This document shows positions 38,266-44,552 of a stretch of DNA of 64,000 nt, piece after piece. Numbering within the stretch: the first letter of the stretch is position 1; the number at the start of each line of letters is the position of its first letter. This stretch comes from Actinomycetes bacterium (GTDB lineage: Bacteria > Actinomycetota > Acidimicrobiia > Acidimicrobiales > RAAP-2): the NCBI GenBank assembly GCA_021779735.1, contig JAJYAC010000001.1:62001-126000 (forward strand), given 5' to 3'. Both the position numbers and the translations under genes were made by a program. The notes below the pieces were generated by a model. The model had not been told where the DNA came from, made no database searches, and worked only from the letters and a program-made list of their open reading frames with translations.

Positions 38266-38811
38266 TCAATCTCTCTCGCGCCGACGAAGCTCGTCTTCGA
38301 GCGCGGCGGGGTCGAGACCCCGGCTACGCAGCAGTAACAAGGTGTGGAACCAGAGATCCGCCGCCTCTTCAATGACCCGCTCGTCGCTTTCGGCGAGAGA
38401 CGCCACCGCGAGCTCGACGGCCTCTTCGCCGACCTTGCGCGCCGCGCGCGCGGTCCCGGCGCGCAGCGTAGCCACGACGTAGGAGTCCGGCGCGTTGCTG
38501 AGATCACGTTGGAGGATGCGCCGCCAGAGCCACGGCGTAAAGCACGAGGTCGACCCGTCGTGACACGTCGGTCCCGTGGGCTCGACGCGCACGAGCACCG
38601 CGTCCTCGTCGCAGTCGAGGATGACTTCAATGACGCGCAGCTCGTTTCCCGAGGTCTCTCCCTTGCGCCAGAGTTTCTGGCGCGAGCGCGAGTAGAAGTG
38701 CACGAGGCCACTCGATCGCGTCAGAGCCAGCGCCTCGTCGTCCATCCAACCCAGCATGAGGACTCGACCCGACGCGTCGTCTTGAATGATGGCCGCCCGC
38801 AGTTCAGTCAT
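38266..38811 (-). CDS. hisIE: Bifunctional phosphoribosyl-AMP cyclohydrolase/phosphoribosyl-ATP pyrophosphatase
   Basis: LMLGWMDDEALALTRSSGLVHFYSRSRQKLWRKGETSGN; DCDEDAVLVRVEPTGPTCHDGSTSCF; EEAVELAVA...EAADLWFH. Confidence 0.96.
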   Translation of the reverse strand: MTELRAAIIQDDASGRVLMLGWMDDEALALTRSSGLVHFYSRSRQKLWRKGETSGNELRVIEVILDCDEDAVLVRVEPTGPTCHDGSTSCFTPWLWRRILQRDLSNAPDSYVVATLRAGTARAARKVGEEAVELAVASLAESDERVIEEAADLWFHTLLLLRSRGLDPAALEDELRRRERD

Positions 38812-39559
38812 GGTGTCTCCTCAGTGGTCGAAGGGCCACTCCCAGGCCCTGAATCTCCGCGCGTAGCCCGGGCAAGCCCTGGGGATTCTCGTGCACGATC
38901 GAGGCGACCAGCGCGGCGTCGGCCACCGCGAGCGCCTCGGCGACGTGGCGGGCGTTGCCGGCGCCACCCGAGGCGATGACCGGAATCGTCACCGCGTCGT
39001 GGACCGCTTGCGTGAGCTCCAGGTCGAAACCCTCACGGTGTCCGTCGTGGCGAATCGAGGTGAGCAGGATCTCGCCGGCGCCGCGCGACGCCACCTCGAC
39101 GGCCCAGGGAATCGTCGCCACCTGCGTGGCCACCGCTCCCCCGTGGGTGTGCACGACACCCTCACCCGCGTCGATGGCCACGACGACGGCCTGAGCGCCG
39201 AAGCGATCCGCGATGCGCGTGATCAAGTCCGGATCCGCGAGGGCGGCCGAGTTGATCGAGACGCGATCGGCTCCGGCTTCGATGATGCGCGAGGCGTCGT
39301 CGAGGCTGCGCACGCCCCCGCCCACCGTAAAGGGGATGTCCAGGACGTCTGCGACACGCGTCACGACCTCGAGCATGGTCTGCGCGTCGTCGGGAGTCGC
39401 GGCGATGTCGAGAAAGACCAGCTCGTCGGCACCGAGCGCGCCATAGAAGGTCGCGAGCTCCACCGGGTCGCCCACGTCGCGCAGCCCCACGAAGCTCACG
39501 CCTTTGACGACCCGGCCTCGGGCCACGTCGAGGCAGGGGATCAGACGCGGGAGAGGCAT
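38804..39559 (-). CDS. hisF: Imidazole glycerol phosphate synthase cyclase subunit
   Basis: RLIPCLDVARGRVVKGVSFVGLRDVGDPVELA. Confidence 0.97.
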   Translation of the reverse strand: MPLPRLIPCLDVARGRVVKGVSFVGLRDVGDPVELATFYGALGADELVFLDIAATPDDAQTMLEVVTRVADVLDIPFTVGGGVRSLDDASRIIEAGADRVSINSAALADPDLITRIADRFGAQAVVVAIDAGEGVVHTHGGAVATQVATIPWAVEVASRGAGEILLTSIRHDGHREGFDLELTQAVHDAVTIPVIASGGAGNARHVAEALAVADAALVASIVHENPQGLPGLRAEIQGLGVALRPLRRHHD

Positions 39560-40095
39560 GAGGCGAGGAAGTCGAGACCGGCCGGGCCGCTCTTTTCGGG
39601 GTGGAACTGCACGCCAAGGAAGGCCCCGTGTTCAACCACGGCGGTCACGCCGTCGGCGCTCGCCGTGGCGTAGGGGGTGCGGGCAGCGTAGGAGTGCGCG
39701 AAGTAGAACGCCTCGCCCCAGGGCTCAACAACCTCCCACCCGAGGCGCGGCACTCGCCCCTCGCGCAAGCGCGTCACCGTGCCCTCAATGAGACCCAGGC
39801 CCGTGACGCCGCCATCTTCCTCGCTTGACTCGAGGGCCAGCTGAAGGCCGAGGCAGATACCCAGCACCGAGCCCTCGCTACGAATGCGCTCCACGAGTGA
39901 CGCCGCAGCGCCGGTGTTGTTGAGGCGGGCCATGGCGCTGCGCGCCGAGCCGACGCCCGGCAAGATCACGAAATCAGCGCCCGCGATGGCGAGCGGATCA
40001 CTCGTCACGCGTCCGCGCGCGTCGAGACGGCCCAGGGCCGCCACGACCGAGTGCGTGTTGCCCGCGCCGTAGTCAACGACGACGACCTCTCTCAC
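39541..40095 (-). CDS. hisH: Imidazole glycerol phosphate synthase glutamine amidotransferase subunit
   Basis: VDYGAGNTHSV, LGICLGLQLALESSEE, GVQFHPEKSG. Confidence 0.95.
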   Translation of the reverse strand: MREVVVVDYGAGNTHSVVAALGRLDARGRVTSDPLAIAGADFVILPGVGSARSAMARLNNTGAAASLVERIRSEGSVLGICLGLQLALESSEEDGGVTGLGLIEGTVTRLREGRVPRLGWEVVEPWGEAFYFAHSYAARTPYATASADGVTAVVEHGAFLGVQFHPEKSGPAGLDFLASCLSRV

Positions 40096-41612
40096 AGCGA
40101 GCCCTTGGTCGAGCGCACGAGCGAACCACTCGGCGTCATCGCGGCCGCGAGCGCTCGGCCCACCGCCTTGAACGCGGCTTCGGCTACGTGGTGGGCGTTA
40201 CGACCACTCGCCGTGACGTGCAGGGTGATGCGCGCGGTCTGGGCCAGGGACTCAAAGGCATGGGTCGCCATACCGGGATCCGGGTCGATGTCGAGCTCGG
40301 ACACCGCACGCCCTGACAGATCGACGACCGCGTGTGCGATCGCCTCATCCATGGGCACGCGCGCCTCGCCGTAGCGCGCGATGCCGCGCCGGTCGCCCAG
40401 CGCGCGATCCAGGGCCTCGCCGAAGGCGCGCATCATGTCTTCGACCAGGTGGTGATCACCGGTCTCCAGATCGCCCACGCCCTCGAGTCGCAGGTCCATC
40501 CCGCCGTGGAAGGCCAGCTGAGAGAGCATGTGATCGTAGAAACCCTCGCCGGTGGCCACGTACACACGACCCTCGCCGCGCGGGCGAAGTCGCACACGCA
40601 AGATCGTTTCAGCGGTCGCGCGACGGTGACGCACGAGCGCTGACGACGGCGTCGCGCCCCGGAGTTCGGCCCGTAGCGCGTCGAGCAGCACGTCGTCATC
40701 GACCTCGTCACGCACACTCACGCGCCACCCATCGCCGAAGGCTCGCGTCACCAGGCCATAAGGCAGGAGGCGCTCGACGAGGTCGCTCGGGTTGGGCATC
40801 GGCACGAAGAGGAAGTTCGTAAAGGAAGGCACGGGCTCGAGGCCGAGTTCGGTCAGCTCGCGCGCGAGGCGCTCTCGCTCGGCCACCTGTTCACTGACGT
40901 CCGGTGGCGTCGCGATCGCCGCCAGAGCGAGGGCCGCCGAGAGTGTCGACACCGACAGGGGCGCCTGGCGCGACGTGATCACCTCGATCGACTGCGTACT
41001 CGCGAGGGCGTAGCCGACGCGCGCGCCGGCCAGGCCGAAGGCCTTGGAAAAGGTGCGGAGGATGATCGCGCCGCGCTCGAGGTGATCGAGTGCGTCCACG
41101 CCCGCGTAGTGGGCGTACGCCTCGTCAATGACGAGTTGCCCGGCGACGTCGGGGACGTCCACCAACTCACCCGTGGGGTTGTTAGGCCGACAGACGAACA
41201 CGAGGTCGGCGCGCGAGGGATCGTCCACCATCGTGGCCCCCGCCATGATCGCCGCGTAGCGGTACATCGAGTACGAGCGGCTCGGAACGGTTGCGACGGT
41301 GCCGCCGTTGGCGAAGATCCGCGCGAGGAGCACGATGAACTCATCACTGCCGGCCCCGAGGGCCACCTGTGCGACGTCAAGGCCGTGGTACTTCGCGATC
41401 GCGCGACGCAGGGGCTCGTGGCGACCACGGTCGTACTCGTTCACGTCGGCCAGGGCTCGCGCGAGAGCCGCGGGTCGAGCGCTGGCGGGCGGGGCCGCCG
41501 GGACGTTGCCGTCAAAGCGGATCATGTCCGAGGGCGTGAGACCCACACGCGCGGCCAACTCCTCGTTCGACGGGGGCCAGGTGTAACTCTCCAGGGGTAG
41601 GGGTCGGGTCAT
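40092..41612 (-). CDS. hisCB: Fusion: histidinol-phosphate aminotransferase (HisC)-imidazoleglycerol-phosphate dehydratase (HisB)
   Basis: 506-aa uninterrupted ORF: N-half CRPNNPTGELVDV, LRTFSKAFGLAGARVGYA; C-half RRATAETILRVRL, FYDHMLSQLAFHGG, GDHHLVEDMM, PMDEAIAHAVVDLSGRAV, GRNAHHVAEAAFKAVGRAL. Confidence 0.95.
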   Translation of the reverse strand: MTRPLPLESYTWPPSNEELAARVGLTPSDMIRFDGNVPAAPPASARPAALARALADVNEYDRGRHEPLRRAIAKYHGLDVAQVALGAGSDEFIVLLARIFANGGTVATVPSRSYSMYRYAAIMAGATMVDDPSRADLVFVCRPNNPTGELVDVPDVAGQLVIDEAYAHYAGVDALDHLERGAIILRTFSKAFGLAGARVGYALASTQSIEVITSRQAPLSVSTLSAALALAAIATPPDVSEQVAERERLARELTELGLEPVPSFTNFLFVPMPNPSDLVERLLPYGLVTRAFGDGWRVSVRDEVDDDVLLDALRAELRGATPSSALVRHRRATAETILRVRLRPRGEGRVYVATGEGFYDHMLSQLAFHGGMDLRLEGVGDLETGDHHLVEDMMRAFGEALDRALGDRRGIARYGEARVPMDEAIAHAVVDLSGRAVSELDIDPDPGMATHAFESLAQTARITLHVTASGRNAHHVAEAAFKAVGRALAAAMTPSGSLVRSTKGSL

Positions 41613-42667
41613 CGGCGGGCCGTTCGCTTGTGGTTGGGCATTCCCTCGAGGTCCGCGAGGGCCTCGATCGTGGGCGCGAGTCGCTCGAGTCCCTCCTTGG
41701 TGACGCGTTGAACGGTCACGGTCTTCATGAAGTCCTCCAGGCCCAGTCCGCCGGTCGAGCGGGCCCAGCCGCCTGTCGGCAACACGTGGTTACCACCCGT
41801 CGCGTAGTCGCCCGCGGGCACCGGCGAGTAGGGACCGACGAAGACGGCGCCGGCGTTCCTGATGCGCGGCGCGAGTGACTCGGCGAGAGGCCCCAGGAGT
41901 GCGACGTGTTCGGCCGCGTACGCCTCGACGGCCTCGAGGGCGCCTTCAAGGTCCTCGCCCACGCGCACCACGTACGCGCGCGAGTCGGGACCGTGCTCCA
42001 TCTGGGCGGCGACCTCTTGGTCGATCAGCGACTGATCGACGTCGTCGTCGGCGACGACCACGACTTCGCTGGGCCCGGCGGGCAGGTCAATGGCGACGTC
42101 GCGACTCACGAGCAACTTCGCCGTGTTGACGGCGCCGCCGCCGGGACCGAAGATCTTGTCAACCGGGGCGATGGACGCGGTGCCGTACGCCATCGCCGCG
42201 ATGGCCTGGGCGCCGCCGAGCGCCCACACCTCCTCGATCCCGAGCAGGGCTGCCGCTGCCGCCACCGCCGCGGCACCCGCGGGCGGCGTGCAGACGACGA
42301 TGCGCTCGACGCCCGCCACCTGAGCCGGTACCGCACTCATGATGAGCGAGGAGACGAGCCCCCGCGGCACGTACAGGCCCACGCTGCGAAGGGGCGACCA
42401 GCGCCTTTCGAGTGTGACCCCGGGCGATACCTCCAGAACGAGATCACTCGGACGTTGGGCCGCGTGCCACGTGCGCACGGCCCCGGCCGCCGCCAGCACC
42501 GCCGCGGTGGGGATGTCTCCGTAAGCCACGGCGCGCTCCGGCGAGGCCGCCGTGGTGGCGTCAAGGCGTCGGGACCAGTCCGCTGCAGCCTCGTCACCGC
42601 GAGCGCGCACGTCCGCGACGATGTCTTCAACACTGAAACTGCCATCGGTGGCGACGGGGCGACTCAC
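41609..42667 (-). CDS. hisD: Histidinol dehydrogenase, short divergent form
   Basis: 352 aa; RSVGLYVPRGLVSS, VWALGGAQAIAAMAYGT, AYAAEHVALL, NHVLPTGG. Confidence 0.9.
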   Translation of the reverse strand: MSRPVATDGSFSVEDIVADVRARGDEAAADWSRRLDATTAASPERAVAYGDIPTAAVLAAAGAVRTWHAAQRPSDLVLEVSPGVTLERRWSPLRSVGLYVPRGLVSSLIMSAVPAQVAGVERIVVCTPPAGAAAVAAAAALLGIEEVWALGGAQAIAAMAYGTASIAPVDKIFGPGGGAVNTAKLLVSRDVAIDLPAGPSEVVVVADDDVDQSLIDQEVAAQMEHGPDSRAYVVRVGEDLEGALEAVEAYAAEHVALLGPLAESLAPRIRNAGAVFVGPYSPVPAGDYATGGNHVLPTGGWARSTGGLGLEDFMKTVTVQRVTKEGLERLAPTIEALADLEGMPNHKRTARR

Positions 42668-43521
42668 GGCATCATCCTCTCGACGGGCAGAGTCAGCATC
42701 GAGCTCGCGCCGAGGGACTCTAGGGCGGGCAGGAGATTCCAGATCGTCGCCGCGGGAACAAGCGCGTGCACCGCGACAACGCCGGGCGTCGCCAGGTCCA
42801 TGACCGTGGGCGAGCCACGCGTGGGCAAAATGGAGGTAACGGCGTCGAGTCGGTCCTTCGCCACGTTAAAGAGAAGGTATCGACTCGCCCGGGCGTTGAT
42901 CACGCTCGAAAGAATGGTCGCGAGTCGATCACGCGACTCAAAGTCGTCATCACCGCTTCGCCCCACCAACACCGCCTCGGAGTCAAAGAGTGAGCCGAGC
43001 GGACGCAGTCCGTTCGTGCGCAGAGTCGAACCCGTCGACACCAAGTCGATGATCGCGTCCGCGAGCCCGAGGCGCGGCGAAATCTCCACCGAACCGCCCA
43101 CCTTGACAAGTTCGGCCTCGATACCGAGTTCGGCGAGGGCGCGCGCCGCGGTTCGCGGGTGCGCGGTCGCGATACGACGGCCCGCCAGATCCGCCAGCGA
43201 TGTCGCCGTATCCTCGCGCGGCACCGCGGCCTGCAGCGAACAGGTGCCGTAGCCCAAGCGTAAGAGCACCTCGACGTCGCAGTCACGTTCGTAAATCAGA
43301 TCCAAACCGGTGATGCCACAGTCCACGACGCCGTCTTGGACGTACTCGGGCACGTCGTCGGCGCGCACGAACAGCAGATCGATGTCGGCATTGCGACAGT
43401 GCGCCTGCAGGACACGCTCCCCCGGCTCTTGGGGGTCGACGCCACTCGCTTCGAGCAACGCCCACGAGGGCTCGCGGAGTCGACCCTTCGAGGGCAGCGC
43501 CAGGCTCAGTCGCCGCGTCAC
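42664..43521 (-). CDS. hisG: ATP phosphoribosyltransferase (long form)
   Basis: 285 aa; LALPSKGRLREPSW, DVPEYVQDGVVDCGITGLDL, DAIIDLVSTGSTLR. Confidence 0.95.
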   Translation of the reverse strand: MTRRLSLALPSKGRLREPSWALLEASGVDPQEPGERVLQAHCRNADIDLLFVRADDVPEYVQDGVVDCGITGLDLIYERDCDVEVLLRLGYGTCSLQAAVPREDTATSLADLAGRRIATAHPRTAARALAELGIEAELVKVGGSVEISPRLGLADAIIDLVSTGSTLRTNGLRPLGSLFDSEAVLVGRSGDDDFESRDRLATILSSVINARASRYLLFNVAKDRLDAVTSILPTRGSPTVMDLATPGVVAVHALVPAATIWNLLPALESLGASSMLTLPVERMMP

Positions 43522-43832
43522 GAACGGGCCTTCTTGAGTACGCGTACGTAGCCGCCCTCGCCGTGGTGCAACCAGTGCGCCACGCGAGTCACGGTTGCCG
43601 TCGAGGCGCCCGTGAGACGTGAAATCTCCTGGTAGGCAACCCCTTCATTCACGAGACGCGCCACCTGGAGGCGTTGACCCATGGCGTCGAGCTCGTTGGT
43701 CGTGCAGAGGTCTCGCAAGAAGGACGTCACCGCCTCGGGGCTTCGCAGGCGCAAGAAGGCGGCGACGAGCTCGTCGAATCGATCGACGGTCGCGACGTGC
43801 GCGTCGGCCGGAAGTACTTTGCCACTGGTCAT
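43518..43832 (-). CDS. TrpR/YerC-YecD family DNA-binding protein, first gene of the his operon
   Basis: 104 aa; TTNELDAMGQRLQVARLVNEGVAYQEISRLTGASTATVTRVAHWLHHGEGGY; overlaps hisG by 4 nt. Confidence 0.88.
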   Translation of the reverse strand: MTSGKVLPADAHVATVDRFDELVAAFLRLRSPEAVTSFLRDLCTTNELDAMGQRLQVARLVNEGVAYQEISRLTGASTATVTRVAHWLHHGEGGYVRVLKKARS

Positions 43833-43842
43833 GTCATCATGC

Positions 43843-43860
43843 TAGCGTGTTACAACGCTA
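43843..43860. promoter_or_regulatory. Candidate his operator
   Basis: TAGCGT-GTTACA-ACGCTA inverted repeat in the yerC-hisA intergenic gap (43833..43862). Confidence 0.6.
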
Positions 43861-43862
43861 CT

Positions 43863-44552
43863 ATGCAACTGATACCCGCCATTGACCTCCTCGGCGACGA
43901 CGTCGTGCGCCTCGAACGAGGCGACTACGAACGTGTGCTCTTTCGCCGACCCCTCGAAGACTTCGTACGCCGAGTCGTGGCGACGGATCCCGATCTGATC
44001 CACATCGTCGATCTCCAGGGAGCTCGCGACGGCGCCGTGCGGTTAGACGTGGTGCGTCGCTGTGTGCGAGTCGCCGGCGACGTCGCCCTGCAGATCTCCG
44101 GTGGCATACGAAGTCTCGACGACGCGCACGCCGTCCTCGAGTCGGGCGCGACACGCGTCATTATCGGCACGTCACTGTGGCGTGACGCCTCGAGTCTCGA
44201 GATCTTCAGTGATGCGCTCGGCGAACAGCTCGTGGCCGCCCTCGACATTCGCGACGGCCGAGTCGCCGTGAGAGGCTGGCTCGCCGATTCTGGAGTGTCG
44301 TTCGACGACGCGCTCGCACGCTGTCGTGACGCGAAAGTAGCGCGCCTACACATCACGGCCATCGACCGCGACGGCACACTGTCCGGACCTGATTTTGCCC
44401 TCTACGAGCAAGCATGCGCGAGCGGAATCGCGGTCGTGGCCGCCGGTGGTGTGCGCGACCAGGATATTGCCCGTCTCGAGGCCATTGGCTGTGAGGGTGC
44501 GGTTATGGGCGTGGGATACCTGGCCCGTCTCGGTCTCTCAGACCTGATCTAG
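43863..44552 (+). CDS. hisA: Phosphoribosylformimino-5-aminoimidazole carboxamide ribotide isomerase
   Basis: ATG 43863; MQLIPAIDLLGDDVVRLERGDYERVLF, LQISGGIRSLDDA, VAAGGVRDQDIARL. Confidence 0.95.
   Translation: MQLIPAIDLLGDDVVRLERGDYERVLFRRPLEDFVRRVVATDPDLIHIVDLQGARDGAVRLDVVRRCVRVAGDVALQISGGIRSLDDAHAVLESGATRVIIGTSLWRDASSLEIFSDALGEQLVAALDIRDGRVAVRGWLADSGVSFDDALARCRDAKVARLHITAIDRDGTLSGPDFALYEQACASGIAVVAAGGVRDQDIARLEAIGCEGAVMGVGYLARLGLSDLI

Follow-up and report, generated by a model that had tools for sequence, protein, structure and literature searches.

The 30-bp gap between yerC (start 43832, minus strand) and the divergently transcribed hisA gene (ATG 43863, plus strand) is most likely, judging from its sequence, an operator of the adjacent TrpR-family protein HisR (YerC), which would control the whole histidine pathway and yerC itself. 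This reading is based on the protein family, the gene linkage, the conservation of gap length and of the -10 elements, the same motif found independently in a second order, a single site in the genome, the loss of yerC together with the pathway, and duplication of the site where hisA has moved away.

In the window, i.e., the whole stretch of 64,000 nucleotides analysed, yerC (43518-43832; a putative repressor of 104 amino acids) is the first gene of a minus-strand operon and is followed by hisG in its long form (42664-43521), hisD (41609-42667), a hisC-hisB fusion (40092-41612), hisH (39541-40095), hisF (38804-39559) and hisIE (38266-38811). These genes overlap in series, yerC with hisG included, and hisA (43863-44552; PF00977, E 8e-45) lies on the opposite strand. 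The fused hisC and hisB form a single gene of 506 amino acids, and HisD is just 352 amino acids long, which is about 60 under the length of the family profile and matches this profile in two stretches; the short length of HisD is also kept in relatives.

The gap is exactly 30 bp long in 81 loci of the window's genus. Numbered 1-30 from 43833 to 43862, it has the consensus nnYAnYATGCTARCRTGCTANNACGCTRCT followed by ATGCAA, a conservation that is partly owed to common descent. Positions A7, T8, T11 and A12 are unchanging in all 81 loci and correspond on the minus strand to TANNAT at -12 to -7 of yerC, which in the window is TAGCAT (43839-43844). The yerC gene thus has TANNNT at the position expected of a leaderless promoter in 81 of 81 loci, as in the leaderless promoters described for actinobacteria. 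In 372 kb of the window's genome, TANNNT is about 10 times commoner 12 nt before start codons than at other distances (25 versus ~2.7), an enrichment which indicates that leaderless starts are normal in this genome; the commonest leaderless hexamers in the stretches analysed are TAGGCT, TAGCGT and TAGCCT. The original prediction of a leaderless yerC is therefore supported. A candidate -35 element of yerC, TTGCAT, lies within codons 1-2 of hisA (43863-43868, minus strand) with an 18-bp spacer, and consistent with this the second hisA codon is CAA in nearly all loci of the genus, in a genome with a CAG:CAA ratio of about 4:1. For hisA, the candidate -10 element is TAGCGT (43843-43848, plus strand), which has its TA in common with the yerC -10; gap positions 11 and 12 are invariant, T16 is found in 95% of the loci and a purine at position 17 in 100%. 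From T11, A12 and T16, transcription of hisA is predicted to start near gap position 23 (43855), 8 nt before the ATG, and a candidate -35 element, TTGCCA, suggested by sequence and column conservation, is located within codons 3-5 of yerC (43819-43824, plus strand), also with an 18-bp spacer. The hisA transcript, which the earlier proposal took to be probably leaderless or nearly so, is probably not leaderless: its TANNNT is located 20 nt upstream of the ATG, which predicts a leader of 8 nt, the hexamer at -12 to -7 is TACAAC in the window, and a T at -7 occurs in just 7% of relatives. A leaderless hisA start through TANNAC at -12 was also considered and rejected, given that hexamers of the TANNNC type are not enriched at the leaderless position in the genome. 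What differs here from known leaderless promoters is that two promoters stand back to back and share a TA and a predicted operator. Gap positions 19-20 and 23-27, finally, are conserved above almost all third codon positions of hisA and are unexplained by the yerC and hisA promoters. When shifted by 8 bp, the gap sequence is prominently similar to itself (0.57 identity across the genus), and in the window it can be read as four 8-bp units, CATCATGC, TAGCGTGT, TACAACGC and TACTATGC (43835-43866, plus strand), the last of which takes in the hisA ATG.

An independent view of this pattern comes from another order of the same class, in which a matching genome (G419) carries yerC-hisG-hisD and so on with hisA divergent, as in the window, and the protein is found in 75 of 149 relatives of that genome. 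In every sister-order locus fetched hisG comes after yerC, and in most of them hisA is divergent. The gaps are longer than the 30 bp of the window's genus, an RBS-like stretch precedes hisA at variable distance in 46 of 70 loci, and a leaderless-type yerC (TANNNT at -12) is rare (3 of 70); the two orders therefore differ in their promoter layout. The sister-order gaps contain the motif TGTNNTA-RCAYGY-TANNACA, often in 3-5 units with a period of 8 bp, as in the arrays TAGCGTAT-TAGCACAT-TAGCACAC (locus L254), TAGCGTTC-TAGCACGC-TAAGACGG-TAGCACAG (L262) and GTGTTGTAACATGCTACAACAC (L296). In 62 non-redundant gaps, TA dinucleotides are spaced by 8 bp 174 times versus 21 expected (z 38), by 16 bp 109 times versus 19 and by 24 bp 60 times versus 17; three to five phased TAs occur in 52 of the 62 loci, compared with about one in shuffles, and secondary sites are found at +/-8 and +/-16 only, the arrangement of dimer sites stepped by 8 bp.

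A symmetric 22-bp matrix with the consensus GTGTNNTA-RCATGY-TANNACAC was trained on the 62 sister-order loci only and used to scan 371,982 positions (stretches of ~372 kb) of the window's 1.7-Mb genome. Positions 43837-43858 rank first with 20.9 bits, the best place outside the gap reaching 7.9. The predicted primary operator, TCATGCTA-GCGTGT-TACAACGC, has its axis at 43847.5 and a TA-N6-TA core at 43843-43852, and is, like HisR-type operators, a palindrome of about 20 bp built on TA-N6-TA and placed before his genes. Two secondary operator positions are predicted at +8 bp (43845-43866, axis 43855.5, rank 2, 9.8 bits) and -8 bp (43829-43850, axis 43839.5, rank 5, 7.4 bits). The left half-site in the window is CATGCTA, compared with TGTNNTA in the sister order, which may lower the affinity of HisR for it; the departure appears to fall exactly where the yerC -10 requires an A. 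A relaxed version of the operator pattern, allowing one mismatch, occurs once in the 1.7-Mb genome, and the strict genus pattern is found in the his locus only (28 of 28). No further regulon members were found in the window's genome by the pattern search of 1.7 Mb and the matrix scan of 372 kb. The operator type predicted for the yerC gap is conserved across about 150 related genomes belonging to two orders. These data also bear on whether the gap could be explained by its promoters only, the conserved blocks representing the -10 and -35 elements of leaderless genes whose divergent promoters overlap, and the palindrome arising from the favoured TAGCGT and TAGCAT hexamers on both strands. TAGCGT and TAGCAT are indeed among the commonest leaderless -10s in the genome, and the dyad at gap position 11.5 is what two -10 elements with a common TA produce. 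However, the explanation is unlikely, because the sister order has the same phased motif though yerC is rarely leaderless there and hisA usually has a variably spaced RBS, and because the conserved ACGCT falls outside both -10 elements.

The sequence first noticed in the gap was a palindrome, TAGCGT-GTTACA-ACGCTA, which does lie at 43843-43860 and ends 2 nt ahead of the hisA ATG. It is the sole match at up to two mismatches in the window (chance expectation 1.5 at two mismatches) and, across the 1.7-Mb genome, the sole exact match, with no excess there of matches at two mismatches (21 versus 24 in the control); in isolation, the 18-mer is no more than suggestive. The original prediction took it as the binding site of one HisR dimer with an axis at 43851.5 that could repress both promoters. 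The arms are perfect over 6 bp in the window and this axis, at the array's middle TA, coincides with the one about which two tandem dimers would be symmetric. Nevertheless, a single dimer in this register is very unlikely. The arm pairs are poorly kept among relatives, being complementary in 27-74% of them (weighted), which is the level given by column composition, and a covariation test in the genus gave nothing beyond that composition, so the dyad was rejected as a covarying unit. Moreover, the class matrix scores -55 bits in that register and +18.9 bits only 4 bp away, and 67 of the 81 genus gaps are best centred at the equivalent of 43847.5. From the sequence comparison the palindrome is a slice of the 8-bp array. 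When its conservation was checked in relatives, the place proved to be strongly constrained, but what is conserved there is the 8-bp-phased TA-N6-TA array and not the dyad. As the matrix centre lies 4 bp off and further sites are phased by 8 bp, repression by one dimer is doubtful, and two or three dimers in tandem seem more plausible. A part of the proposal that holds is that an operator in the gap would be common to both promoters, the predicted site overlapping both -10 elements.

The assignment of the neighbouring gene to the YerC/HisR-type repressors was confirmed by curated models. The 104-amino-acid protein scores 81.2 bits on TIGR02531 (cut-off 42.2) and matches PF01371 with an E of 1e-23, and it stays below the cut-off of the trp-repressor model TIGR01321 (25.9 bits, cut-off 67.25); the adjacent genes are all his genes and none is a trp gene. 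The nearest solved structures are 3kor, 3frw and 3g1c. The TrpR residues that contact DNA, A80, T81 and R84, are retained in the motif STATVTR of the window's protein, and 85 of the 88 loci read in the genus, as well as most sister-order loci, have STAT(V/I)TR. At the position of TrpR residue 83, the recognition helix in the window has a Thr, as TrpR does, and the three solved Firmicutes proteins a Ser; as a guess, this residue may be tied to the TGT/ACA type of operator flank.

HisR has been described as a TrpR-family regulator of his genes, and that of Ruminococcus gnavus requires histidine to bind its site (Ashniev et al., 2022; PMC9413887). Its motif is cacTTTAnnnnnnTAAAgtg in Firmicutes, Coriobacteriales-type Actinobacteria and Synergistetes, and TGTAnTArnnnnyTnTTACA in Proteobacteria (PMC9413887). 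The published regulon agrees with the locus described here in protein family, target pathway, presence of the site before hisR and his genes, and the TA-N6-TA palindrome. The Actinobacteria in that survey are only Coriobacteriales/Eggerthellales, in which hisR is unlinked and the site is TTTA-N6-TAAA flanked by cac/gtg, whereas the sites here have TGT/ACA flanks, 8-bp tandem arrays and a divergent hisA. The published TrpR consensus, TGTAcTnGTnnACnAgTACA, which represents the E. coli operators, fits the pattern TGTNNTA-N6-TANNACA found here. With the class matrix, the TrpR consensus scores 15.3 bits, the Proteobacteria form 13.6 and the Firmicutes form 1.8; all published HisR and TrpR motifs are compatible with a TA-N6-TA geometry, and the class motif has the TGT/ACA flanks of the Proteobacteria and TrpR forms. 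Work on synthetic operators has described how TrpR dimers bind in tandem and how this interacts with overlapping promoters (PMC8745587). Unlike the E. coli TrpR system, the present one is HisR-type by curated models, has his genes as neighbours and contains arrays of up to five units. HisR and tandem TrpR binding are thus already known, and what is new is the lineage, the tandem arrays and their fusion with divergent promoters, that of yerC being leaderless; a literature search for his regulation in this class found no paper. Binding of the site by YerC is something that we infer, and another regulator could in principle take its place with YerC as a passenger. However, this is highly improbable, given that the geometry fits published HisR and TrpR operators, the site is next to yerC in both orders, and the DNA-contact residues STAT(V/I)TR are retained.

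In the mechanism that we propose, HisR, probably with L-histidine bound, would sit as a dimer on TGT/CATNNTA-N6-TANNACA/G at 43837-43858 and cover both -10 elements, so that neither hisA nor the yerC-hisGD(CB)HF(IE) operon could start. A site every 8 bp would let two or three HisR dimers bind next to each other, as TrpR dimers do, which would make the shut-off steeper. A drop in histidine would then empty the array, allowing the synthesis of a yerC mRNA that begins at its ATG and a hisA mRNA whose leader measures ~8 nt. Control of the his transcripts at the RNA level by an attenuator, a T-box or a leader hairpin, common for his genes in other systems, is extremely improbable here, since a leaderless yerC and at most ~8 nt before hisA offer no room for it and the motif has an 8-bp phasing and reads symmetrically on the two strands. 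Regulation by HisR may follow the same principle throughout the class, and we regard the chances as evenly balanced: two to four HisR dimers in 8-bp steps would cooperatively coat the his control region, the number of steps (three to five phased TAs, depending on the species) would set the steepness of the histidine response, and in the window's genus the array would have been squeezed into 30 bp, where one sequence would serve at once as the operator, as the -10 box of each promoter and as part of each gene. The locus represents a compact and testable control region, in which the same ~40 bases accommodate a predicted operator, a pair of divergent promoters and two start codons, and would add a class beyond the published survey to the HisR regulon. 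In addition, the natural arrays of three to five units could be used to ask how tandem TrpR-type binding shapes a feedback response, a question so far described for synthetic trp operators.

Loci in which the arrangement has been broken are informative. In two relatives (L045 and L046), yerC and hisA are split by a gene ~0.7 kb long, and one copy of the element is found before yerC and another directly before hisA, ending at the hisA ATG. The intervening gene is membrane-protein-like, and the old hisA ATG beside yerC is now ACG. In L075, no such site accompanies the displaced hisA. Four genomes of the genus that are at least 94% complete and have no sign of an assembly gap (G074, G348, G352 and G358) have neither yerC nor detectable hisA, hisF and hisD, and controls match strongly in them, which indicates that the repressor travels with the pathway. 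These four cleanest cases may represent few independent losses, and the organisms are likely histidine auxotrophs. Three other apparent losses of yerC were excluded, one (G325) with a contig end inside hisA and two (G332 and G362) that keep other his genes in incomplete genomes.

Within a sample of the order, yerC is confined to the window's genus, and within the family it is present in 87 of 172 genomes, every one of this genus. The divergent hisA beside yerC in this genus may be an ancestral arrangement or may have been acquired from the other order; a HisA tree on this question resolved clean groups and gave no answer in its deep branching. In other genera of the family (loci L094-L101), hisA belongs to the operon, in the order hisB-hisH-hisA-hisF, and its identity is just ~37%.
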